Shown piece by piece: positions 2,429 to 16,018 of a stretch of 55,031 bases of DNA (its first letter is position 1; every line of letters starts with the position of its first letter). The DNA lies in assembly GCA_947643165.1 (NCBI GenBank), contig CANRVB010000016.1:1-55031 (forward strand), given 5' to 3'. Source of the stretch: an uncultured Porphyromonadaceae bacterium. Its GTDB lineage: Bacteria; Bacteroidota; Bacteroidia; Bacteroidales; Muribaculaceae. Under the pieces are notes generated by a model. It worked only from the letters and a program-made list of their open reading frames with translations. It did not search any database and was not told where the DNA came from. Both the position numbers and the translations under genes were made by a program.

Positions 2429-3541
2429 ATGAATTTCGATGAATACATACGCCAAGGCGAACCGCAGCAACGGGAAAAGGGGTATGCATGGCAGACGGCA
2501 ATCGGTTTGCAGGCAGTCGATAGACTGAAACCATCCGATTATCTTATAGAGACCGCACGCAAAGATATAGAGGGCGAAATTACGATTGACGAGGCGGAAC
2601 AGCTTATAAAGAGCTATTACCAGTCAAAAGAAGCTCGTACACCAGAGGATGACGAAATGCATGAGGCGGATACGGCTTCGACCAATATCCGCCGGCTGCT
2701 TACCGAAAAAACCTTTGCTTTTACGCTTGTGGGGCTAACCTCGATCCATCGTAGGATATTTGACGGTGTGTTCAAGTTTGCCGGTCAGATCCGCGATTAC
2801 AACATTACCAAAAAAGAGTGGGTACTGCGTGGGGATACGGTGTTGTATGTTTCAGCTCCCGACCTTCGCGATGCGATCGAATATGACTTGGAGCAAGAAC
2901 GCCAGTTTGACTATTCAAAAGTGGACAGGGATGGATTAGTGAGCCACATTGCCAAATTCGTATCGGGGCTGTGGCAAATCCATCCGTTCGGTGAGGGAAA
3001 TACACGTACGACGGCCGTGTTCGCGATTCTCTATCTCCGTTCTATGGGCTTTGACGTGACAAACGATTTGTTTGCAAGCCATTCGTGGTATTTCCGCAAT
3101 GCGCTGGTACGCGCCAACTATCAGAATGTGCAAAAAGGCATCATGCGTAATTCAAAATATCTGGAGCGTTTCTTCCGTAATCTGTTATTAGGCGAAAACA
3201 ATGAGTTGCGGAATCGGTATATGATTGTCGATTCATCCGAAGAGGATCGAATGGAACACGAAGACCGTACAAGTACCGAACAACCTGCCACCGTACAAGT
3301 AACCGAACAAGTCCGTGTTTTGCTGTCAGCTTTGTCAAGTGAACAATTATCATTAAAAGTATTGATGGGAAAAGTCGGGCTAAAGCATCGTCCGACATTT
3401 ATGGAGAATTATATAAGCCCTGCTTTAGAGAGTGGTTTTCTGAAGGTGCTGTATCCCGACAAGCCTAATCATCCGAGACAAAAATACTTGCTGACGGCAA
3501 AAGGCTTGGCGCTGTATAACGAAATCAAGAAAATGCGATAG
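2429..3541 (+). CDS. Fic-domain protein (AMP-transferase family) with VbhA-like N-terminal helix
   Basis: Fic enzymes transfer AMP (or other nucleotide groups) to protein hydroxyls. The 370-residue protein carries the Fic core motif HPFGEGNTRT starting at His185, preceded by the flap region (ITKKEWVLRGDTVLYVSAPDLRD). The motif departs from the canonical HxFxDGNGRxxR: the second Gly is Thr and the last Arg is absent. That is known among Bacteroidetes Fic proteins, but its activity is unclear. Residues 41-62 (ETARKDIEGEITIDEAEQLI) resemble the inhibitory helix of VbhA-type antitoxins (class II-like regulation), although the Ser/Thr of the strict motif is not at the expected place. A C-terminal winged-helix-like segment (about 290-370) follows. 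It ends at a strong terminator. Confidence 0.88.
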   Translation: MNFDEYIRQGEPQQREKGYAWQTAIGLQAVDRLKPSDYLIETARKDIEGEITIDEAEQLIKSYYQSKEARTPEDDEMHEADTASTNIRRLLTEKTFAFTLVGLTSIHRRIFDGVFKFAGQIRDYNITKKEWVLRGDTVLYVSAPDLRDAIEYDLEQERQFDYSKVDRDGLVSHIAKFVSGLWQIHPFGEGNTRTTAVFAILYLRSMGFDVTNDLFASHSWYFRNALVRANYQNVQKGIMRNSKYLERFFRNLLLGENNELRNRYMIVDSSEEDRMEHEDRTSTEQPATVQVTEQVRVLLSALSSEQLSLKVLMGKVGLKHRPTFMENYISPALESGFLKVLYPDKPNHPRQKYLLTAKGLALYNEIKKMR

Positions 3542-3628: not shown

Positions 3629-3667
3629 AAAAGCACTGTGTTAGGTCTGACCTAACACAGTGCTTTT
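3629..3667. terminator. Intrinsic terminator after the Fic gene
   Basis: A 17-bp perfect stem (3629-3645 with 3651-3667) has a 5-base loop that can close to 3 bases, A-rich on the left and T-rich on the right. It separates the accessory genes from the polysaccharide locus. Confidence 0.85.
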
Positions 3668-3850: not shown

Positions 3851-4035
3851 CGGCTCCGATCGGTTCTTTTATGGGATGCGATCGGAGCTTTGTGGCTATT
3901 GATGGTCGAGATCGTTGTGTGTGTATGATTGTCGATGAGGTAGCGCCAATTTTGTCGAACTTTTCGACGCGGTTCTGTAACTTCTTGATGCACAACAGTG
4001 TGTGTGCTTGGGGAGGATAGGAATATTTTGCTGTG
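3851..4035 (+). promoter_or_regulatory. Structured 5' leader of the polysaccharide operon
   Basis: No convincing gene lies between 3668 and 4035; the open frames here have no recognisable features. At the expected transcript start is a 10-bp stem (3853-3862 with 3879-3888) with a 16-base loop. A second hairpin (3954-3959 with 3963-3968, loop CTT) lies further down. In Bacteroides capsule loci the UpxY proteins act on such leaders to prevent early termination, and this leader has the right position and length for that role. Confidence 0.55.
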
Positions 4036-4695
4036 ATGGGCGAGAATCTGCATTACAGGCCTGTGTGCTGTGTGAATAGGGAGCGGTTGTCGGGGGTGGA
4101 TGATGGTGAGCTACGCTGGGTTGTGATGCGTTCGCTGCAAAACAAGGTAGTGGTTACGGAGACTGGGGCTGATGGCCGGGAGGTGTATGTTAAGAGGTTC
4201 GGGTATGAGAATGCGGAGCGTTTGTTCTGTGAGTTTTTCATGCCGATGAAGGAGCTGATCTCGGTTGTGAGAGGTCGGCGTGTGATACGCCGTGAGCCGG
4301 CTATAGCGGGTATGTTTTTTGTGAGGGATTCGGTGGATAGGATCAGGGAGCTTTCGACGGGGCGTCTGGGCTTTGAGCTGAAGTATATGAGGGGTCGCGG
4401 TTACAGGGAGCCGGTGGTGATAAATGATGTGGAGATGAATGTTTTCATGAGGGCTATCGGGAGTGCCGAGGAGGTGCGTTTTTTCTCGCCGGATGATAGT
4501 GATCTGTGTGGCAAGATAGGGCGGCGTGTGAGGATATATAAGGATGAGAGTTGCTTTGAGGGCAGGATAATAAGTTTCCGTGGATCGAAGCGCCGGTGGC
4601 TGCGTATAGGAATAGATGGTTTTCTGGTGGCTGAGATGGATTTTGATATCGGTGCTCTGGAGCGGTCGGGTCAGGTGATAGAGCTTCTTGATTAG
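4036..4695 (+). CDS. UpxY-like (NusG-family) transcription antiterminator
   Basis: The product has 219 residues from the ATG at 4036; a GTG codon directly before it is an alternative start. The N-terminal half has the NGN pattern: LRWVVMRS in the first strand, then FFMPMKELISV, and AGMFFVRDSVDRI. The C-terminal part resembles a KOW domain (GRRVRIYKDESCFEGRIISF). The family binds the elongating polymerase and lets it read through the leader of its own locus. In Bacteroides fragilis UpxY proteins are locus-specific. The position, first gene after a promoter and leader and ahead of a polysaccharide cluster, fits well. No UpxZ-type inhibitor is seen. Confidence 0.85.
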   Translation: MGENLHYRPVCCVNRERLSGVDDGELRWVVMRSLQNKVVVTETGADGREVYVKRFGYENAERLFCEFFMPMKELISVVRGRRVIRREPAIAGMFFVRDSVDRIRELSTGRLGFELKYMRGRGYREPVVINDVEMNVFMRAIGSAEEVRFFSPDDSDLCGKIGRRVRIYKDESCFEGRIISFRGSKRRWLRIGIDGFLVAEMDFDIGALERSGQVIELLD

Positions 4696-4961: not shown

Positions 4962-6779
4962 ATGCAAGCTATTATATTGGCCGCAGGTATGGGCCGACGG
5001 TTGGGTGAATTCACAGCCGACAATACGAAATGTATGCTTGAAGTGAATGGAGTGCGTCTGATAGACCGTATGTTGGGCCAGCTCCATAATCTCAATCTGA
5101 CACGTATAATAATTGTGATCGGGTATGAGGGTCAGAAGCTGAAGAATTACATATCCAAGAATTATCCGTCGTGGCCGATAGTTTTTGTGGAGAATAGTGT
5201 GTATGATAAGACTAATAACATCTATTCGCTGTGGCTGGCCAGAGGGTTTATGGCTGAGGATGAGACATTGCTGCTTGAATCGGATCTGATATTCGAGGAT
5301 TCGGTGCTTGCGGCTGCGGTGGAAAGTGAATATGCGAACTGTGCTCTGATCTCCAAATATGAGACTTGGATGGATGGTACGATGGTTCGTATAGATGATG
5401 ATAACAATATCGTAAATTTCATACCGAAGAAGGCATTCAAGTATAGTGATACGGATTATTACTATAAGACGGTGAATATATATAAATTCTCGAGGGAGTT
5501 TATAGTGGATCATTATCTGCCTTTTCTGGAGGCGTATATACGGGTTCTGGGCGAGAATGAGTATTACGAGCAGGTGCTACGTGTGATCACGCTGATAGAT
5601 AATGCGGGTATGAAGGCGTTGCCTATAACGGGTAAGCATTGGTATGAGATAGATGATGTTCAGGATCTGCGGATAGCTGAGGCTATCTTTGCGGATCCTG
5701 AGGATAGATTAAGAAAGATACAGCATTCGTTCGGGGGATACTGGCGTTACCCGGGGATGCTTGATTTCTGCTATCTTGTGAATCCTTACTTTCCACGTGG
5801 GAGGATGATAGATGAGATGAAGGCTAACTTTGAGCCGCTGCTGCGTGATTATCCGTCGGGAATGGGTGTGAATTCGCTTCTGGCGGCAAAGTATTTCTCG
5901 CTCCGGCATGATTATGTTGTTGTGGGGAATGGCGCGGCTGAACTGATAAAGAGTCTTATGGGCTATGTAGATGGCCGGGTTGGTGTGATATATCCGACAT
6001 TTGAGGAGTATCCCAACCGGCTCGCTGCGGACAGGATAGTGGCTTTCCATCCATCTTCTCCTGACTTCGCCTATACGGCTGATGATCTGATAGATTTCTT
6101 CTCGGGAAATAATAAGGTGGAGAGCCTTCTTGTGGTGAATCCGGATAATCCGTCGGGTAATTTCATAGACCGTGAGGGGCTGGACAAACTGGCCGGATGG
6201 GCGTCGGAGACGGGGGTACGTCTGATCGTTGACGAGTCGTTTGTTGACTTTGCCAGCGATGCTGCCGGCACTACGTTGCTCCACAATGAGATATTGCAAC
6301 AGTATCCTACTCTGTGCGTGATGAAGTCGATATCGAAGAGCTATGGTGTACCGGGTCTAAGGCTTGGTGTTCTTGCTTCGGCTGACAGGGATATCATCAA
6401 CTTCATGCGTAAGGATGTGGGGATATGGAATATAAATTCGTTTGCTGAGTTCTATCTGCAGATATACGGAAAGTATGAGAAGGACTATGCGCGTTCGTGC
6501 GATAAGTTCCGAGAGGAGAGGACGCTGTTCGAAGCCGAACTTCATTCAGTCCCGAATTTGCGAGTCATCCCATCTCAGGCCAATTACTTCCTTTGTGAGC
6601 TTGAAAATGATCTTACATCAAAAGAATTGACTTTGCGTCTTCTCACAGACTATAACATTCTGATCAAGGATTGTTCATCTAAAAAGGGTTTTCCCAGCGA
6701 CCATCAGTATGTCAGAATCGCAATCCGCGACCGTAAAGATAACCACAAACTTGTAGAAGCACTCAAATCCATAATGTGA
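4962..6779 (+). CDS. Bifunctional nucleotidyltransferase (LicC-like) / PLP-dependent CobD/HisC-like enzyme
   Basis: This 605-residue fusion has two domains. Residues 1 to about 235 form a sugar-phosphate-type nucleotidyltransferase like choline-phosphate cytidylyltransferase LicC: LAAGMGRRLGEFTADNTKCM gives the G-rich nucleotide loop and conserved Lys, and LLLESDLIFED the metal Asp. Residues from about 245 form a class I/II aminotransferase fold: NPDNPSGNF, VDESFVDFASD, and the PLP lysine Lys459 in SISKSYGVPGLRLG. The VPGLRLG and DESFVDF strings look more like CobD (threonine-phosphate decarboxylase) than like histidinol-phosphate aminotransferase. I infer formation of an aminoalcohol phosphate and its activation as a CDP derivative for the LicD protein at 10419. 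Substrates are unproven, and plain transamination is possible. The stop overlaps the next start. Codon choice shifts to C-ending codons after about 6540. Confidence 0.82.
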   Translation: MQAIILAAGMGRRLGEFTADNTKCMLEVNGVRLIDRMLGQLHNLNLTRIIIVIGYEGQKLKNYISKNYPSWPIVFVENSVYDKTNNIYSLWLARGFMAEDETLLLESDLIFEDSVLAAAVESEYANCALISKYETWMDGTMVRIDDDNNIVNFIPKKAFKYSDTDYYYKTVNIYKFSREFIVDHYLPFLEAYIRVLGENEYYEQVLRVITLIDNAGMKALPITGKHWYEIDDVQDLRIAEAIFADPEDRLRKIQHSFGGYWRYPGMLDFCYLVNPYFPRGRMIDEMKANFEPLLRDYPSGMGVNSLLAAKYFSLRHDYVVVGNGAAELIKSLMGYVDGRVGVIYPTFEEYPNRLAADRIVAFHPSSPDFAYTADDLIDFFSGNNKVESLLVVNPDNPSGNFIDREGLDKLAGWASETGVRLIVDESFVDFASDAAGTTLLHNEILQQYPTLCVMKSISKSYGVPGLRLGVLASADRDIINFMRKDVGIWNINSFAEFYLQIYGKYEKDYARSCDKFREERTLFEAELHSVPNLRVIPSQANYFLCELENDLTSKELTLRLLTDYNILIKDCSSKKGFPSDHQYVRIAIRDRKDNHKLVEALKSIM

Positions 6780-7705
6780 TGAGATATATAACAAGCGAAC
6801 AAATAGAGGATCTTCAAATCAGTCCTTCCACTTGTGTCGATTGGGTTCGGGAAGCATTTCTTATAAAAAATAGGTGCCAATTGCCTCCAAAAATCTCACT
6901 TCATCCACGTGGTAATGATTTTGTGAATACGATGCCGTGTATTTTGCCTGAGGAATATCACTCGTTCGGCTGTAAGGTTGTGACACGCATAAAGGGCCAG
7001 CATCCGGCACTCAACAGTGAGATGATGATGTTTGACACCCTTACGGGCAAGATGACCGCGCTCGTCAATACAGATTGGATCACGGCCATGCGAACGGGAG
7101 CGGTAGCGGCGTTGGCTATCAATACATTGCGACGGAGTGATGCCATGGTGTATGCTTTCGTCGGGCTTGGAGTGATCGGGCATGCCACTCTCGACTGTCT
7201 GCTTGCCACAAATATGGATTCTTCAATTACCGTACGTCTTAAACGGTATAAAGATCATGCTGAAACCACTGTTTCAAAGTACTCTCACTTCAAGAATGTA
7301 ACATTTGAAATAGTCGATACGATGGAAGATCTTGTTGAAGGGGCCGATGTCGTGGTATCATGCATAACCGATGCAGATGGACTGCTTGTTGATGATACTG
7401 ATTTATTCAAACCCGGAGTATTGGTTGTGCCCGTCCACACTCGCGGATTCCAGAATTGTGACACTGTTTTCGACAAGGTATTTGCTGATGACGAGGGACA
7501 TGTGCGTGGATTCAAATACTTCAGCCAATTCCGTAGATTTGGCGAAATAGCTGATGTGCTCTCGGGTAAAATACCAGGGCGCGAGTCAGACTCCGAGCGC
7601 ATTCTGTCGTATAACATAGGTCTTGGCCTCCATGATGTGTATTTCGCAAATAAGATCATAAATAATATGAAAAGTATTACCCCCCCCCCCTGTGTAGATA
7701 TTTGA
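6779..7705 (+). CDS. Ornithine cyclodeaminase/mu-crystallin-family protein with 3' poly-C tract
   Basis: The 308-residue product belongs to the OCD/mu-crystallin family of NAD(P)-dependent imine-forming or imine-reducing enzymes, which also includes SbnB-type opine-like dehydrogenases. Visible features are RIKGQHPALNSEMMMFDTLT and DWITAMRTGAVAALA (typical substrate-site region), the nucleotide-binding GLGVIGHATLDCLL, and ADVVVSCITDADGLL. The ATG at 6779 overlaps the TGA of the preceding gene by one base. The 3' end runs into eleven C residues, giving a terminal SITPPPCVDI. One extra C would instead add sixteen residues and stop at 7738-7740, overlapping the next gene by ATGA. Product and substrate are unknown; the neighbours suggest an amino acid or aminoalcohol derivative for the polysaccharide. 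Confidence 0.84.
   Translation: MRYITSEQIEDLQISPSTCVDWVREAFLIKNRCQLPPKISLHPRGNDFVNTMPCILPEEYHSFGCKVVTRIKGQHPALNSEMMMFDTLTGKMTALVNTDWITAMRTGAVAALAINTLRRSDAMVYAFVGLGVIGHATLDCLLATNMDSSITVRLKRYKDHAETTVSKYSHFKNVTFEIVDTMEDLVEGADVVVSCITDADGLLVDDTDLFKPGVLVVPVHTRGFQNCDTVFDKVFADDEGHVRGFKYFSQFRRFGEIADVLSGKIPGRESDSERILSYNIGLGLHDVYFANKIINNMKSITPPPCVDI
7680..7690 (+). repeat. Homopolymeric C11 tract inside a coding region
   Basis: Eleven consecutive C residues lie 15 bases before the present stop codon of the OCD-family gene. Tracts of this length are prone to slipped-strand mispairing. Twelve or nine Cs would open the longer frame to 7740. Confidence 0.9.
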
Positions 7706-7736
7706 TTGTTAATCTATTAAGTGCTAAGACGGCCGC

Positions 7737-8786
7737 ATGATTATGACCAGTATAAAAACGATCTGTATATGTGGCGGCGGTGGACAATGTCATGCTATAG
7801 CGCCATGGCTTACAAATAAAGGTTACACTGTAAATATCTTGACCAGTCGTCCGCAAGAGTGGAACCGAGATTCATTTAAATATAATACTCCAGATGGTAT
7901 CTCCCACATAGTTAGCCTTGGTAAAATATCCAATCAGCCGGAAGATGTAATTCCAGATGCTGATGTTGTAATATTGACGGTCCCAGCTTTTTCTAATGAG
8001 AATGAATTAAAGTCAATAAAGCCATTTCTTAAGAAGAATGCTTTCGTGGGAGGAGTATTCGCTTCAAACGGATTCTTTTTCTCTGCGGATGATGTGTTAG
8101 GCGATCAATTTCCACTGTGGGGTTTTCAGAGGGTTCCATTTATCGGAAAGGTTAAAGAATACGGAAAGGAAGGCAACATATTGGCGTATAAGACAGAATT
8201 TGTCATAGCTGTAGAGAACTGTCGTCAGGAACAAAAAGAAGCTTTCAGAAAATGGGTTGAAGCGGCATTTGGACAACCGACCAAACTAATGTCCCATTAT
8301 CTAGAAGTTACTCTCTCTAACAGCAATCCTCTTCTGCATCCTGCTCGCATATATACTTGGCTAATGGGTTGGAATGGCGAAGTATTGGAAGACAATCCAC
8401 TCTTTTATGAAGAATGGACAGATGAGGCGTCTCAGGTTTATATTGATATCGATTATGATTTGCATAATTTGATCAAAAAACTTCCCATAGATAATGAATG
8501 TCTTCCATATGTTTTGGATTACTATAACCAAATGGATGCCCATTCTTTAACACTGAAGCTTCAGTCGATAGAATCATTTAAAAATATCCGCATGCCGGTT
8601 AAAAAGGTTGATGGTGGGTATGTTCCTGACTTTACGAGCCGATATTTTGCAGAAGATTTTCTATACGGATTACGTTTCGTATATGATTTGTCAAAAAAAT
8701 ATAATGTTTCGACTCCGATGGTAGACAAAGTGTATCAGTGGGGGTTGAATCTTATTAGTAAAAATGGCGGAAACACTGGGAAGTAA
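7737..8786 (+). CDS. NAD(P)-dependent octopine/nopaline (opine) dehydrogenase-like protein
   Basis: The 349-residue protein has a Rossmann start (TICICGGGGQCHAIAPWLTN) and the continuation DADVVILTVPAFSNENEL, as in the NAD/NADP octopine/nopaline dehydrogenase family. The C-terminal domain contains SNSNPLLHPARIYTWL; opine dehydrogenases carry a catalytic His in a comparable N-x-x-x-H segment. The family reductively joins the amino group of an amino acid to a 2-oxo acid. A second ATG at 7743 is an equally good start. It is relatively AT-rich compared with the first gene of the locus. It follows an OCD-family gene, and the pair suggests formation of a secondary-amine (opine-type) building block. 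Confidence 0.82.
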   Translation: MIMTSIKTICICGGGGQCHAIAPWLTNKGYTVNILTSRPQEWNRDSFKYNTPDGISHIVSLGKISNQPEDVIPDADVVILTVPAFSNENELKSIKPFLKKNAFVGGVFASNGFFFSADDVLGDQFPLWGFQRVPFIGKVKEYGKEGNILAYKTEFVIAVENCRQEQKEAFRKWVEAAFGQPTKLMSHYLEVTLSNSNPLLHPARIYTWLMGWNGEVLEDNPLFYEEWTDEASQVYIDIDYDLHNLIKKLPIDNECLPYVLDYYNQMDAHSLTLKLQSIESFKNIRMPVKKVDGGYVPDFTSRYFAEDFLYGLRFVYDLSKKYNVSTPMVDKVYQWGLNLISKNGGNTGK

Positions 8787-10197
8787 AGCGGCGAAAGGAG
8801 CTATATGGGCTACAATTGACCGCTTCGGGTATCTGGGATTGCAATTTTTTGTCAATCTCATATTGGCACGTCTTTTGATGCCAGATGATTTCGGGGCTGT
8901 CGGGATGCTCTTGATCTTTATAGCGGTGTCAAATGTGCTTGTTGACAGTGGCTTTGGATCGGCTCTTGTACAGAAAAAGACTCCTACGCAGACGGATTAT
9001 TCTACGGTATTGTATTGGAATATAAGTTTTTCGGTGTTGCTTTATGCTGTGTTGTTTGTGCTGTCTCCGTTGATTGCTGATTTCTTCAAATATCCGATCC
9101 TGCGGCCTGTGCTTCAGGTATATGGAATTGTGTTAATTACAAATGGAGTCAGTTCAATTCTGTTGGCCCGACTCCGCAAGCAGCTTGCTTTCAAGCAGAT
9201 CGCAATTTCCGATCTCTCAGCCTATATGATAGCATCATGTATGGGTACGTATCTGGCTTATCACGGATATGGGGTATGGAGTCTTGTAGGATTGCAGATA
9301 GCCTATGGTGTGATACTGATAGGAATGTTGTGGTCAGTTTCGCGATGGAGACCGTCGCTGGAGTTCTCGAAAGAATCATTGCGCCAGCTTTTCGGATTTG
9401 GGGGTTATATAATGGCAGCCTCAATACTGCAGGAAGCATGTAAGAATCTTCAGGGAATTATAATTGGCAAAAAATTTTCGGCTACCCAGATGGGGTATTA
9501 TTCCCAGGCGGCAAAGCTGGAGCAGGTAAGCAGCACATCGCTTCCGCAGGTCATTGTGCAGGTGATGTATCCGGTTTATTCTGCAATTCAGGATGATGCG
9601 GAGCGGCTGGTGAGTGTGTTGCGTATGAATATACGCGTGATCTCGTTCGTTGCGTTTCCAATTGTTTCCATTCTCATAATTGCTGCCAACCCGATCATAA
9701 TAGGGCTTTATGGTGAAAAGTGGCTGCCTTCGGTGCCATATTTCCAAGTGCTGTGTGTAGGGGGATTTTTCACTTGTCTACAAAACATAAATTTCTATGC
9801 GGTAGCGGCTGTAGGAAAAAGCCGAGCTCTGTTCAGATGGAGTTTTTATAAGTGGGGATTTCTCCTTGTGGCTCTTCTTGTGGGTGCTATATTTGGAATG
9901 TATGGTATTTTATGGGGGATGGTGTTGAGCAATATCAATATCTATCTTGTCAATGCATATCTGACAGCCAAATATGTTGAACTGACATTCGCACAACAGA
10001 TACTGACACTTCTTCCAGTAGCTGGGGTATGTGGATCGGCAGTGATGATTTCGCTTTTGATAACGGCAGTTGGCTTTCATTTTACAGTTGCAGTCGCTAC
10101 GTTTATGATAGTGTACTTCGGTCTGAGCATACTCCTGCGGCTTAGAGCGTTGAGGGATGCGATAGCGCTTTGTCGCAGACTTATGAATCGTCGTTAA
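8764..10197 (+). CDS. Wzx-type oligosaccharide flippase (MOP superfamily)
   Basis: The 477-residue protein has about 12-14 hydrophobic segments. Its N-terminus (KGAIWATIDRFGYLGLQFFV) and LLMPDDFGAVGM are typical of lipopolysaccharide-biosynthesis flippases of the polysaccharide transport family. Such proteins move undecaprenyl-linked repeat units across the inner membrane before Wzy polymerisation. The start overlaps the end of the opine-dehydrogenase-like gene by 23 bases, marking one transcript. Confidence 0.9.
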   Translation: MAETLGSKAAKGAIWATIDRFGYLGLQFFVNLILARLLMPDDFGAVGMLLIFIAVSNVLVDSGFGSALVQKKTPTQTDYSTVLYWNISFSVLLYAVLFVLSPLIADFFKYPILRPVLQVYGIVLITNGVSSILLARLRKQLAFKQIAISDLSAYMIASCMGTYLAYHGYGVWSLVGLQIAYGVILIGMLWSVSRWRPSLEFSKESLRQLFGFGGYIMAASILQEACKNLQGIIIGKKFSATQMGYYSQAAKLEQVSSTSLPQVIVQVMYPVYSAIQDDAERLVSVLRMNIRVISFVAFPIVSILIIAANPIIIGLYGEKWLPSVPYFQVLCVGGFFTCLQNINFYAVAAVGKSRALFRWSFYKWGFLLVALLVGAIFGMYGILWGMVLSNINIYLVNAYLTAKYVELTFAQQILTLLPVAGVCGSAVMISLLITAVGFHFTVAVATFMIVYFGLSILLRLRALRDAIALCRRLMNRR

Positions 10198-10208
10198 TCC
10201 CTGGTTTA

Positions 10209-10234
10209 GGAGTATACATATGGAGTATACATAT
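10209..10234 (+). repeat. Two tandem copies of a 13-bp unit
   Basis: GGAGTATACATAT occurs twice head to tail in the gap after the flippase gene. Each copy contains the palindrome GTATAC. Its role is unknown. Confidence 0.7.
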
Positions 10235-10281
10235 ATATCAACAAAGTATTCAGTAATTAAAATCAAGAATAATAAAGGTTG

Positions 10282-10416
10282 ATGAAGGGGCTGGCTCAGT
10301 GGAATGTGCAGCTCGTGTTAGAGTGTGTGGCATATTATGAGATAAGTTATCGTTCGATAGCTTTCGAGTGCTATGAGGTGCCACAGATCCGTCCTTTCTC
10401 ACGTCCTAAAAACTGA
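10282..10416 (+). CDS. 44-codon open frame, possibly a gene remnant
   Basis: The frame starts with ATG and stops 2 bases before the LicD start. The product contains VLECVAYYEISYRSIAFECYEV and ends RPFSRPKN. It may be the tail of a degraded gene: the IAFE and RPF strings faintly recall the FEREAY...RPF ending of small Bacteroidetes proteins of unknown function. The tight spacing before licD favours translation. Function is not recognised. Confidence 0.35.
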   Translation: MKGLAQWNVQLVLECVAYYEISYRSIAFECYEVPQIRPFSRPKN

Positions 10417-10418
10417 CT

Positions 10419-11225
10419 ATGATAGATCCTGAACTACAGGCCGAACTGCGGCAGCGCTTCAATCCGGATGGGTCGGAGCTGCGAAAGATGCAATTGCGTA
10501 TGCTTGAGATGCTGAAGTATATCGACCGCATATGCCGGGAAAATGATATAAAGTATTGGCTGTCATCGGGTACGTGTCTTGGCGCTGTGCGCCACGGGGG
10601 CTTCATACCATGGGATGATGATGTGGATATAGAGATGCTTGAGGAGGACTATAAGAAGTTGATCATGGTTCTTAATGAATCAAAGCATCCGTCGTATGTT
10701 CTCCAGACTCATCGGACGGATCCAGGGTATTATCTGGACTTTGCGAAGCTGCGGGATGTAAGTACGCAGATTCAAGAGACTTTTGGGGTTGACTCGAGGT
10801 ATAAATATCAGGGTCTATTCATCGATATATTTCATCTATCCGAATCGGGGTCATCAAAGATTCATTATATCTGTGGCCGACTAAGGGTATTGGAGAATTA
10901 TGTACGCCGCTGGTCCATGAGGTATTCACGTTTGGGGGATGCGATATTCTGGTCGCTGCACTTCGTTGACAATATAGTCATATCGCTAAGCCGTCCATTT
11001 GATAGGATAGGATCGAATGGAGATAGGCTTCGCCATACGTTGGGAATCTCATTTTTGGCTCCACGATGCAAATCGGATATTTTCCCACTTAAACGTGTGA
11101 AATATGAAGATGTCATGATGCCTGTGCCGGGTAATTATGATGCATATCTGACCGCTATGTACGGTGATTATATGGAGATGAAGCAGACGCACATGCATTT
11201 AAATAATAGTCATCAGAAGCAATAG
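10419..11225 (+). CDS. LicD-family phosphodiester transferase
   Basis: The 268-residue protein has the LicD signature at about residues 45-70: YWLSSGTCLGAVRHGGF, then IPWDDDVDIEM with the metal-binding acidic residues. LicD proteins transfer phosphocholine or related phospho-alcohols from CDP donors to sugars of surface polysaccharides. The same locus encodes a LicC-like nucleotidyltransferase domain (4962), so the donor is probably made in this cluster. No choline kinase or choline transporter is seen, which argues for a donor other than CDP-choline. Confidence 0.88.
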   Translation: MIDPELQAELRQRFNPDGSELRKMQLRMLEMLKYIDRICRENDIKYWLSSGTCLGAVRHGGFIPWDDDVDIEMLEEDYKKLIMVLNESKHPSYVLQTHRTDPGYYLDFAKLRDVSTQIQETFGVDSRYKYQGLFIDIFHLSESGSSKIHYICGRLRVLENYVRRWSMRYSRLGDAIFWSLHFVDNIVISLSRPFDRIGSNGDRLRHTLGISFLAPRCKSDIFPLKRVKYEDVMMPVPGNYDAYLTAMYGDYMEMKQTHMHLNNSHQKQ

Positions 11226-13761: not shown

Positions 13762-14844
13762 ATGATAAAGAGTAATTCTGTCATAAGTATGGAAACAAAC
13801 AAATGTAAAATCTGCGGGGAGCGGGAGGCGACAAAGACAAATTCGCATCTGTTGCCTGCATTTCTGGAGGCTGTAGTGGGCAGTTATGACCACAGCTATA
13901 GGAGGGATCGGGATGTGCTGATCACCAAGACAAAATATTCTACCCGGATACATACGGGGGCGCTGCCTTCGACTGAATATGAGCGGCTGTTTGATCAGGA
14001 TAAGCTGACAGATGAGCGCATCAAGAATGAGCTGTCGGATAATCCATGTGCGGTAGATTATATTTTCTGCCCGCAATGTGAGTCGGCGTTGAGCGATGTG
14101 CTTGAGTCGAAATATCCGGAACAGCTGAAAACCGGGAGGCCGGTGGACAGGCGTCTTTCGTTTTTCTTCTGGCTGTCGGTGGTGTGGCGGATGTCGGTCG
14201 GCGGAATATTCGGATTCCGTTTGCCAGAGGATATAGAAAATAAACTGGGCAGGAGTCTCGACAGCTATATGAATGGCGGCCTTGACGATGATGCTGTGGA
14301 CCGGTTGATAGAGAAGACGCCTTTCTGCTACAAGTTGTTTCAGTGCAAGGATTATTGCCGCAATCCTGAGCATGGTGGAATGATACACTGCTGGCTGTCG
14401 GATTCGCGGAAATCGCTGATGTGTATGATCGGTGATTTTGGCCTTGAGGTGTGCTTTGCAAAGGAATTTAAGAGTGAGAGTCTTGAATATTTTCTCAATA
14501 AGGCAGTGATTGATGAAGCTCCGCTCAATACGGGCATGGCTGATGAAGAGATATATCATGTCAGCGAGGAGCTGTGGCAGGCGACTCATAAAGGCTTTAT
14601 TGCTCATGGTAAACGTGTAATCGCCGAAGGATATTTAGAAACTCTTGCCCGGATATGGGAAACGATGAAGGCTGAAGGCTGCATAGTGTGTGATGGAGGA
14701 ATGCCTTGGCCGATGGCCATGTGGATATTGAAGGAGATGCTGGATGATAAGGACGTGAAAATGGGCGACAAGCATACACCGGAGCGCTGGCATCATTTGG
14801 TGTGCATGGCTCTTGAGCATCCGGAGTTTTGGAATGGAAAATAA
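13762..14844 (+). CDS. Hypothetical protein with a CxxC treble-clef-like zinc finger
   Basis: The 360-residue protein starts with CKICGEREATKTNSHLLPAF and, about 85 residues later, has FCPQCESAL. The CxxC ... SHxLP ... CxxCE order resembles HNH-like or treble-clef zinc fingers found in uncharacterised proteins. More cysteines (FQCKDYC) follow. The remainder has no motif I recognise and no signal peptide. An internal ATG at 13789 is an alternative start. It lies between two polysaccharide genes and overlaps the next coding region by 11 bases, so it is transcribed with the locus, but it is not an obvious polysaccharide enzyme. Confidence 0.7.
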   Translation: MIKSNSVISMETNKCKICGEREATKTNSHLLPAFLEAVVGSYDHSYRRDRDVLITKTKYSTRIHTGALPSTEYERLFDQDKLTDERIKNELSDNPCAVDYIFCPQCESALSDVLESKYPEQLKTGRPVDRRLSFFFWLSVVWRMSVGGIFGFRLPEDIENKLGRSLDSYMNGGLDDDAVDRLIEKTPFCYKLFQCKDYCRNPEHGGMIHCWLSDSRKSLMCMIGDFGLEVCFAKEFKSESLEYFLNKAVIDEAPLNTGMADEEIYHVSEELWQATHKGFIAHGKRVIAEGYLETLARIWETMKAEGCIVCDGGMPWPMAMWILKEMLDDKDVKMGDKHTPERWHHLVCMALEHPEFWNGK

Positions 14845-16018
14845 AGAAATAATGATGAATAACGGAAGAAAGAAGGTATTTGTGTCCGGCTGCTATGATA
14901 TGCTGCATTCGGGCCATGTGGCGTTTTTCAAGGAGGCGTCGCGTTATGGAGATCTGTATGTAGGTATAGGTTCTGACGCGACTATAGAGGAGCTTAAGCA
15001 CAGGAAGACGGTCTATTCGGAGAAGGAGCGTCTGTATATGGTCAAGTCGATCAGATATGTTACTGATGCGTATATCAATCCGGGGTCGGGGCTGATGGAC
15101 TTTGTCGATACGATAGAGCGTGTGAGGCCTGATGTGTTTGTGGTCAATTCGGATGGCGGAAATGATACGAAGCGTGAGTTCTGCCGGGAGAGGGGAATAG
15201 AATATGTCGTGTTGGAGCGGCAGCCTGACGCGGGTCTGGAGGCCCGGTCGACCACGTCGCTCCGGAAGGGTGTGAAATCGCATTTGCCATATCGTATTGA
15301 TCTGGCGGGGACATGGATTGATCAGCCGTATGTGTCGGAACATGGTGCTGGCTGGGCCATAACGGCCTCCATCGAGCCTACGATGGAGTTTATGGAGCGG
15401 GGAGGTATGTCGACGTCGACGCGCAATGCTGCCAGGAAGATATGGCCTTATGAGCTGCCCAATTACAATGAGGAGATGCTGGCGAGGCTGTTGTTCTGTT
15501 TTGAGAACGATCCGGAGAACGAGGGGCATATCTCGGGAGCCCAGGATGCGATAGGTATCTGTATGTCGGGATTGACAAGGCATTATTACAATGGTCATTA
15601 TTGGCCGGCGAAGATTGAGTCGTGTCATGACGATGATGTGCTGTCGTGGCTTGAGGAGCATGTTTGTCTTGTGGAGATGTTTCCGCGTAGGCCGGGATGT
15701 TCTGTGGTGGAGGGCAAGAGCATAAGTCCTGAGAAGGTTGCTTCGCTGACAGGTGCGGCTGAACGCTGCTGGAATGCGTTGCTTGAACGCAATCTGCCGG
15801 AGTTTGCCGAGGCGTTCCGCGATTCTTTCAATGCCCAGGTGTCGATGTTTCCGGCTATGATGCAGCCCGGAGTCCAGGAGTATATAGACCGCTATAAGGA
15901 TAAGGCTCTGGCATGGAAGATGCTGGGAGCAGGGGGCGGTGGATATTTGGCTCTTGTTGTGGAGAGGATTCCTGAGGATGCTATCAAGATTAAAATAAGG
16001 CGAAAAGATACGTTCTGA
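14834..16018 (+). CDS. Nucleotidyltransferase fused to a GHMP-kinase-like domain
   Basis: The protein has about 394 residues from the ATG at 14834. The first 135 or so residues form a cytidylyl/adenylyltransferase: VFVSGCYDMLHSGHVAFFKEA carries the HxGH nucleotide-binding motif, and ERLYMVKSIRYV the following helix, as in HldE-C or glycerol-3-phosphate cytidylyltransferases. The rest looks like a GHMP kinase (HddA or fucokinase type): LPYRIDLAGTWID at its start, ISGAQDAIGI, and KMLGAGGGGYLALV near the end. The usual Ser-rich ATP loop (PxGLGSSS) is not evident; MSTSTRNAA occupies that region. A role in making a nucleotide-activated sugar or alditol for the polysaccharide is likely; the substrate is unknown. 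Confidence 0.8.
   Translation: MENKEIMMNNGRKKVFVSGCYDMLHSGHVAFFKEASRYGDLYVGIGSDATIEELKHRKTVYSEKERLYMVKSIRYVTDAYINPGSGLMDFVDTIERVRPDVFVVNSDGGNDTKREFCRERGIEYVVLERQPDAGLEARSTTSLRKGVKSHLPYRIDLAGTWIDQPYVSEHGAGWAITASIEPTMEFMERGGMSTSTRNAARKIWPYELPNYNEEMLARLLFCFENDPENEGHISGAQDAIGICMSGLTRHYYNGHYWPAKIESCHDDDVLSWLEEHVCLVEMFPRRPGCSVVEGKSISPEKVASLTGAAERCWNALLERNLPEFAEAFRDSFNAQVSMFPAMMQPGVQEYIDRYKDKALAWKMLGAGGGGYLALVVERIPEDAIKIKIRRKDTF

Follow-up and report, generated by a model that had tools for sequence, protein, structure and literature searches.

A putative decoration module in Bacteroidales that pairs a nucleotidyltransferase–CobD-like fusion and LicD with exchangeable opine-type reductases

A 55,031-nucleotide contig of an uncultured Porphyromonadaceae bacterium (CANRVB010000016.1, assembly GCA_947643165.1; hereafter the window) carries, between positions 4962 and 11225, genes that probably serve to decorate the cell surface, as a module in which a constant core is combined with a changeable opine-type N-alkylation step. 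The core would consist of a nucleotidyltransferase fused to a pyridoxal phosphate (PLP) enzyme, referred to here as the fusion, and of a LicD-family transferase. The variable step is attributed to two reductases, one of the OCD family and one of the octopine-dehydrogenase family (ODH). This view is built on comparison of sequences: gene association, gene fusions, conserved catalytic residues and exchange of partners, with the reactions themselves predicted. A sequence-only reading of the same DNA had proposed that the four proteins form one pathway, from an aminoalcohol phosphate through activation and N-alkylation to transfer by LicD. The four-protein set is confirmed: all four genes are open frames on the + strand in the order that reading gave, and Pfam places each protein. 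The host genome (2.64 Mb in 46 contigs, 88.5% complete) includes the window as contig 16.

Is this arrangement found elsewhere? Searched with the fusion, named genomes encode relatives on 541 stretches, and the best 80 of them (the named loci), selected by likeness to the window and overlapping the samples from the host's own family, were compared. Records that may be misbinned are L064 and L100, titled Verrucomicrobia/Akkermansiaceae, and L041 and L054, titled Clostridia and Lachnospiraceae. The partner of the fusion is ODH in 51 loci, OCD in 18, both in one (L064) and neither in 10, such that the fusion and a reductase are adjacent or part of one protein in 70 of the 80, more than expected by chance. 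The ODH loci comprise 46 with a separate gene on the same strand and five with an in-frame fusion, and the OCD loci comprise 15 with the gene on the same strand and three with it on the opposite strand. Spacing is tight: the median distance of unfused ODH genes to the fusion stop is −1 bp, with 46 of 47 within 100 bp, and 18 of 19 OCD genes are within 100 bp of the fusion end. The five in-frame cases (L062, L065, L067, L103 and L106, all counted under ODH) are single frames of 943–946 amino acids that join nucleotidyltransferase, PLP enzyme and ODH; for four of them, Pfam finds an Octopine_DH domain in the same protein as the nucleotidyltransferase and aminotransferase domains. In L072, ODH and LicD share a single frame of 590 amino acids (Octopine_DH and LicD by Pfam). 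Cultured carriers include Alloprevotella rava DSM 22548 (L056), in which the partner is ODH, Bacteroides cellulosilyticus DSM 14838 (L112), in which it is OCD, and Xylanibacter rarus 109 (L107). The gene-neighbourhood check that the sequence-only reading had called for thus comes out in its favour, with the set recurring in other genomes, and the idea of a single pathway draws support from adjacency, co-occurrence, the triple fusions and the ODH-LicD fusion.

The same association is seen in samples defined by taxonomy. Among 295 genomes of the order (the host's own included), the fusion occurs in 11, with the copy in G266 in two broken pieces. The ODH clade occurs in six of the 295, again counting the host's own, and all six carry the fusion (hypergeometric probability 5e-10 if genomes are independent). 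The close OCD clade occurs in five order genomes, three of them with the fusion (4e-4 on the same assumption). Among 149 genomes of the host's own family, OCD is found at 20 places in 18 genomes, directly 3′ of a fusion at 17 of the 20. Removal of one distant match (G751:C39:99802) from 18 family-sample matches leaves 17 close ODH places, spread over 16 genomes; of these places, 13 adjoin a fusion (three with OCD between). As for the remaining places, L159 is cut by a contig end, and L148, L150 and L160 lie elsewhere in fusion-bearing genomes. In a class-level sample (395 genomes with the host's own, some from the same order), none of the 394 other genomes matches at E 1e-40 for OCD or 1e-60 for ODH; only the host's own genome does. 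A single scan of viral contigs with the ODH protein gave no match. As a separate observation, the fusion gene at L025 10512-12318 is broken between its two domains, and the adjacent ODH is an intact frame.

What distinguishes this module is that its reductase changes from locus to locus. A quick tree was made of 81 fusions, leaving out the short L088 and L109, adding the window, L027 and L029, and retaining one long row (L029). With ALTERNATIVES in one slot, the ODH label requires 22 changes on this tree, 15 of them forced by starred branches, and the OCD label requires 15, at least 13 of them forced. These numbers are hardly fewer than the 24.5 and 16.5 changes needed by shuffled ODH and OCD labels, respectively. 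Near-identical fusions can have different partners, as with L074 (ODH) and L081 (OCD); similar contrasts are seen between L051 (OCD) and L052 (ODH), and between L106 (fused ODH) and both L068 and L076 (OCD). Because of this repeated switching, ODH and OCD look like interchangeable options for one step. Since two unrelated reductase families are exchanged at one place, they also suggest comparable chemistry, most simply the reduction of an imine formed between the pathway amine and an oxo acid. This exchangeability was absent from the sequence-only reading, in which both dehydrogenase-like proteins could N-alkylate the amine. The comparison supports the opine-type step, but as a single slot filled mostly by one protein or the other, instead of two necessary steps. 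A scheme in which both reductases act as obligatory successive steps was rejected as a general rule by the 51/18/1/10 split, and may apply to loci that have both.

How might the module work? By homology, the PLP domain would be a decarboxylase that yields ethanolamine phosphate from O-phosphoserine, or aminopropanol phosphate if its substrate is phosphothreonine. The nucleotidyltransferase domain of the same protein would convert this aminoalcohol phosphate to its cytidine diphosphate (CDP) derivative, and LicD would transfer the phospho-amine onto a sugar. In the variable step, ODH or an SbnB-like OCD would join a 2-oxo acid to the free amine and reduce the resulting imine. The product would be an N-(1-carboxyalkyl)aminoethyl phosphate; ODH acting with pyruvate would give N-[(R)-1-carboxyethyl]ethanolamine phosphate.

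Each domain of the fusion has features consistent with its proposed role. Pfam identifies NTP_transf_3 (40.9 bits, cut-off 27) and Aminotran_1_2 (108.4 bits, cut-off 19.7) in the 605-amino-acid protein (4962-6779). In the PDB, the nucleotidyltransferase domain matches 6pd1, titled nucleotidyl transferase/aminotransferase class V, at 8e-13, and the cytidine triphosphate (CTP):phosphocholine cytidylyltransferase 1jyk at 1e-10. Residues R13, K23, E106, D108, D231 and D232 are invariant in all 73 aligned fusions (70 of the 80 named loci plus the window, L027 and L029). From their spacing, R13, K23 and D108 are taken to correspond to R16, K26 and D112 of PMC12275187. With NTP_transf_3 and the active-site Arg, Lys and Asp in place, the domain fits the LicC/PntC group by sequence. 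For the PLP domain, the top NCBIfam model is TIGR01140 (CobD, 169.8 bits), ahead of TIGR01141 (hisC, 133.5 bits). The PDB ranking is headed by 6oux, titled “threonine phosphate decarboxylase-like” (1.4e-41), followed by 3ftb (3.2e-31), CobD 1lc5 (1.1e-29) and then HisC entries, including histidinol-phosphate aminotransferase 8bj1 (1.8e-20). We take 6oux to be Sulfurospirillum SMUL_1544, a serine phosphate decarboxylase. Agreement with CobD extends to Lys459 (71 of 73 fusions), Asp424 (73 of 73) and Phe427 (72 of 73). The Schiff-base Lys, the PLP-binding Asp and the order of the two models place the domain with the CobD type, and the main CobD-like active-site residues, which the sequence-only reading could not do without, are present.

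It is unlikely, though conceivable, that the PLP domain instead acts by transamination, as Campylobacter Cj1437 does, and forms serinol phosphate or a related aminoalcohol phosphate, in which case the final group would be of an N-alkylated serinol type. HisC is represented in both the model and the chain matches, and the second-ranked chain, 3ftb, was named histidinol-phosphate aminotransferase by its depositors. There is also a precedent in the Campylobacter jejuni capsule, for which an excerpt of PMC11800397 describes two PLP enzymes, Cj1436 making ethanolamine phosphate and Cj1437 making serinol phosphate. However, the fusion scores higher with the CobD model than with the HisC model, its top chain is decarboxylase-like, and Phe427 is shared with 6oux, 3ftb and 1lc5 where HisC 8bj1 has Tyr. 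A fourth argument, for a plain aminoethyl group, comes from an OCD relative in another setting. In genome G229, which has no CobD-type fusion, OCD is encoded directly 3′ of a phosphoenolpyruvate (PEP) mutase (174.9 bits), a thiamine pyrophosphate enzyme taken for phosphonopyruvate decarboxylase, and a nucleotidyltransferase–class V aminotransferase fusion of the PntC-AEPT kind. The amine there would be aminoethylphosphonate or its cytidine monophosphate ester, a phosphonate analogue of ethanolamine phosphate. Because OCD ends an aminoethylphosphonate-type operon in this genome, the context favours an OCD substrate that carries a 2-aminoethyl-P group. One relative of the G229 OCD, in G687 (L129), lies at a contig end, without neighbour information. 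A phosphonate pathway for the window itself was rejected, since the host genome, at 88.5% completeness, has no PEP mutase over the cut-off (best 22.2 bits against 31.5).

The fusion and LicD seem to form the core, which would by itself deliver a plain phospho-amine, with the reductase as an option. In 59 of the 80 named loci, LicD lies no more than 5 kb from the fusion, as counted with 11 LicD queries, one of which (L117) is out of frame. LicD and the fusion both occur twice in the host genome, and each fusion is accompanied by one LicD gene. The second fusion (contig 2, 67927-69732, corresponding to L117 7428-9233) is 57% identical to the first and is followed by LicD, with no reductase adjacent. 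This pair, together with the 10 of 80 loci that lack an adjacent reductase, is the basis for separating core from option. There is some evidence for a different end point, namely that the CDP-activated, N-alkylated amine ends up in the head group of a lipid and not on a polysaccharide: L029 encodes a CDP-OH_P_transf protein directly 3′ of its fusion-ODH pair, and the fusion-ODH pair of L025 lies beside a deoxyxylulose-phosphate synthase gene. The frequent proximity of LicD and the ODH-LicD fusion in L072 argue against this, and we consider a lipid product quite improbable.

What do the reductases themselves suggest? The OCD protein belongs to the OCD/mu-crystallin family, with PF02423 above its gathering score, and Lys67 and Arg106 are present in all 20 aligned sequences (all 19 OCDs of the 80 loci plus that of the window). 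Against the PDB, the profile of this alignment ranks pyrroline-2-carboxylate reductase 6t3e (8.8e-29) ahead of 4m54 (1.6e-24) and an archaeal alanine dehydrogenase (2e-21). The match to 4m54, an entry titled “putative ornithine cyclodeaminase” that is presumably SbnB, spans positions 46-300 of 315. SbnB acts on an opine-like secondary amine. His221, in an HTRGFQNCD-type motif, is invariant (20 of 20) and aligns with a His of 4m54. The mark of the alanine dehydrogenase branch is missing: Asp219 of 1omo, which we take to be catalytic, has no counterpart in OCD and aligns at the Arg223 position (Arg in 16 of 20), beside a two-residue gap.

The ODH profile is drawn from 51 sequences: 45 of the 52 ODHs in the 80 loci, that of the window and five from order genomes, including those of L026 and L028 that do not adjoin a fusion. 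It matches octopine dehydrogenase 3c7a (5.8e-55) and 1bg6, N-(1-D-carboxylethyl)-L-norvaline dehydrogenase (2.4e-14). When residues are numbered by counting along the profile alignment, and assuming that Asp329 is the dyad aspartate, His212, Asp329 and Arg324 of octopine dehydrogenase correspond to His201, Asp307 and Arg302 of the ODH clade, each conserved in 51 of 51. The ODHs thus have the PF02317 domain above its gathering score, the His-Asp dyad and the Arg that senses reduced nicotinamide adenine dinucleotide (NADH), as in the family. An excerpt of PMC2924402 names the catalytic His-Asp dyad and the NADH-sensing Arg324, and states that the side chains of Glu142 and Trp278 hold the guanidinium of agmatine, which is said to bind like L-arginine. 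The ODH clade lacks these ligands of an arginine-using octopine dehydrogenase: Glu142 is replaced by Gln131 and Thr143 by Arg132, both in 51 of 51, and the profile alignment has a gap at the segment with Trp278. The Gln-Arg pair is absent from seven more distant ODHs, and is kept in three triple-fusion ODHs and in the ODH-LicD fusion. From the loss of the guanidinium ligand and the gain of an invariant Arg, we infer that the arginine pocket has been turned into a pocket for a negatively charged amine, such as a phospho- or CDP-amine. These substitutions, the in-frame fusion of ODH to the nucleotidyltransferase-PLP protein and the presence of the fusion in all six order genomes with the ODH clade make it very hard to believe that ODH and OCD produce a free amino-acid derivative such as alanopine, amide-attached and unrelated to the product of the fusion, even though alanopine and N-epsilon-carboxyethyl-lysine are known O-antigen parts according to an excerpt of PMC10609480. 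A distant octopine-dehydrogenase-like protein of ~400 amino acids, with Gly-Leu in place of Gln-Arg, is encoded at L147 12686-13894, ~5 kb from a fusion-ODH pair. Similar proteins are found in L011-L016, and may make another opine-type product.

Several observations weigh against a decoration module of this kind. First, some concern the end of the pathway. No LicD was found within 5 kb in 21 of the 80 loci; 11 of the 21 have a flank of less than 5 kb, and L057 and L093, also among the 21, have LicD 8.5-9.2 kb away. A CDP-alcohol phosphotransferase-like gene is present in L029, L047, L048, L054 and L158. Second, the link between fusion and reductase is incomplete. Beyond the 10 of 80 named loci with neither reductase, three of the 11 order genomes with the fusion (G286, G101 and G151) have neither reductase clade. 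Two of the five order genomes with OCD (G229 and G239) lack the fusion; the OCD of G239 is on a 3.9 kb contig beside a LicD gene. The exceptions in the host's own family are two orphan OCD genes (one in the host genome, one in L143) and L146, which has LicD-like genes and no fusion. The orphan in the host genome (contig 9, 24445-25350; L125) encodes a protein 61% identical to the window OCD, and no match to the fusion, ODH or LicD was found in the 19 kb around it. Third, the window, L064, L133 and L139 have both reductases together, meaning that ODH and OCD can coexist and may not be strict alternatives. Fourth, the phosphonate-type context of OCD is found in one genome. Fifth, several points concern the PLP domain: the fusion scores below both equivalog cut-offs (290.55 for TIGR01140 and 276.55 for TIGR01141) and so is not identified as a threonine-phosphate decarboxylase by that measure, the aminotransferase name of 3ftb points elsewhere, the Schiff-base Lys is missing in two of 73 fusions, and the position of CobD Arg323 is occupied by Lys in 65, Arg in six and Ser in two. 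As a side observation on L146, a LicD-like frame with a CTP_transf-type stretch (4980-6125) lies directly 5′ of OCD and LicD, and might be a different means of activation that supplies this reductase.

The proposed module resembles several known systems. First, the Lic pathway makes phosphocholine decorations by CTP activation of an amine-bearing phosphate followed by LicD transfer. The module is predicted to share both activities, with kinship of both proteins by sequence; the Lic pathway uses choline, whereas the amine here apparently comes from the PLP domain of the same protein, and an N-alkylating reductase is added. Second, in PntC-AEPT of Treponema denticola (Tde1415; PDB 6pd1), a LicC-like cytidylyltransferase forms the N-terminal part of a fusion with a PLP enzyme, and the product is of the aminoethyl-P kind, according to an excerpt of PMC6697681. 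Architecture and product (predicted here) are alike, but the PLP domain of PntC-AEPT is class V and that of the module is of the CobD/HisC type. Third, CobD 1lc5 and 6oux are kin of the PLP domain and share its Schiff-base Lys, Asp and Phe positions; unlike these proteins and Cj1436, the module's domain is fused to a nucleotidyltransferase and mostly has Lys at CobD Arg323. Fourth, ODH matches octopine dehydrogenase 3c7a and 1bg6 over most of its length and has the His-Asp pair and the Arg324 equivalent, but differs from octopine dehydrogenase in Gln131-Arg132, in the gapped Trp278 segment and in its linkage to CDP-amine genes. Fifth, OCD shares its family with SbnB (4m54) and a Val-His at the aligned position, but differs in the motif around the invariant His221 and in genomic setting.

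The predicted decoration was thought by the sequence-only reading to be undescribed. That was not borne out: an excerpt of the review PMC9630907 lists N-[(R)-1-carboxyethyl]ethanolamine phosphate, the predicted ODH product, in Proteus mirabilis O-polysaccharides, so the chemistry is not new. The group is known in P. mirabilis as a structure. In the open-access literature, no paper was found that assigns genes to carboxyethyl-ethanolamine phosphate, or that joins opine-type enzymes with CTP activation or LicD. We therefore view the putative module as akin to the Lic and Pnt pathways, with the exchangeable opine-type step as its distinguishing feature.

What would the functional implications be? 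Zwitterionic groups influence how the immune system recognises Bacteroidales polysaccharides. A broader proposal, for and against which the balance is about even, is that Bacteroidales use this chemistry combinatorially: the fusion would supply CDP-ethanolamine, ODH and OCD would be swapped to vary the oxo acid or the stereochemistry, LicD would attach the product, and a phosphonate operon would substitute in one genome, with the whole serving as a gene model for the Proteus group. If true, the zwitterionic N-carboxyalkyl aminoethyl phosph(on)ates on display would differ even between strains that are close relatives. A recognisable module for N-carboxyalkylated phosphoethanolamine would also make part of glycan chemistry readable from genomes, and would provide a candidate route to the Proteus O-antigen component. 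More generally, this seems a clear example of one pathway step at which two unrelated enzyme families replace each other.

The surroundings of the module (Table 1) read as a capsule-type locus with an UpxY-type gene at its head, based on the UpxY match, the flippase, and, 3′ of the module, a glycosyltransferase and a polymerase match that is weak (25.5 bits against a cut-off of 26.6), both by Pfam. The flippase was missing from the gene list of the sequence-only reading.

Table 1. Features in and just 5′ of the module, in window coordinates
Feature	Position	Strand	Evidence
UpxY-type transcription antiterminator, just 5′ of the module	4033..4695	+	NF033644 61 bits, below cut-off 100; without Pfam match
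Nucleotidyltransferase domain of the fusion (residues 1-250), LicC/PntC-like; proposed CTP:aminoalcohol-phosphate cytidylyltransferase	4962..5711	+	PDB profile matches
CobD-like PLP domain of the fusion; proposed phosphoserine (or phosphothreonine) decarboxylase	5712..6779	+	PDB and NCBIfam matches
OCD-family reductase; proposed opine-type N-alkylating reductase	6776..7705	+	PF02423 OCD_Mu_crystall 100.8 bits, cut-off 24
Octopine-dehydrogenase-family protein (ODH); proposed N-(1-carboxyalkyl) synthase	7737..8786	+	PF02317 Octopine_DH 98 bits, cut-off 30
Wzx-type flippase, between ODH and LicD	8764..10197	+	PF13440 305 bits
LicD-family transferase; proposed phospho-amine transfer to sugar	10419..11225	+	PF04991 155.7 bits, cut-off 22.6

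Two further features of the window lie outside the module. A CTP_transf_like protein is encoded at 14813-16018, with a C-terminal stretch that weakly matches a fucokinase model; relatives that are 71-72% identical are encoded near fusion-ODH pairs in L047, L054 and L158. Upstream, at 3629-3667, an inverted repeat with perfectly matching 19-base arms separated by one base lies 3′ of the frame at 2429-3541 and is terminator-like.

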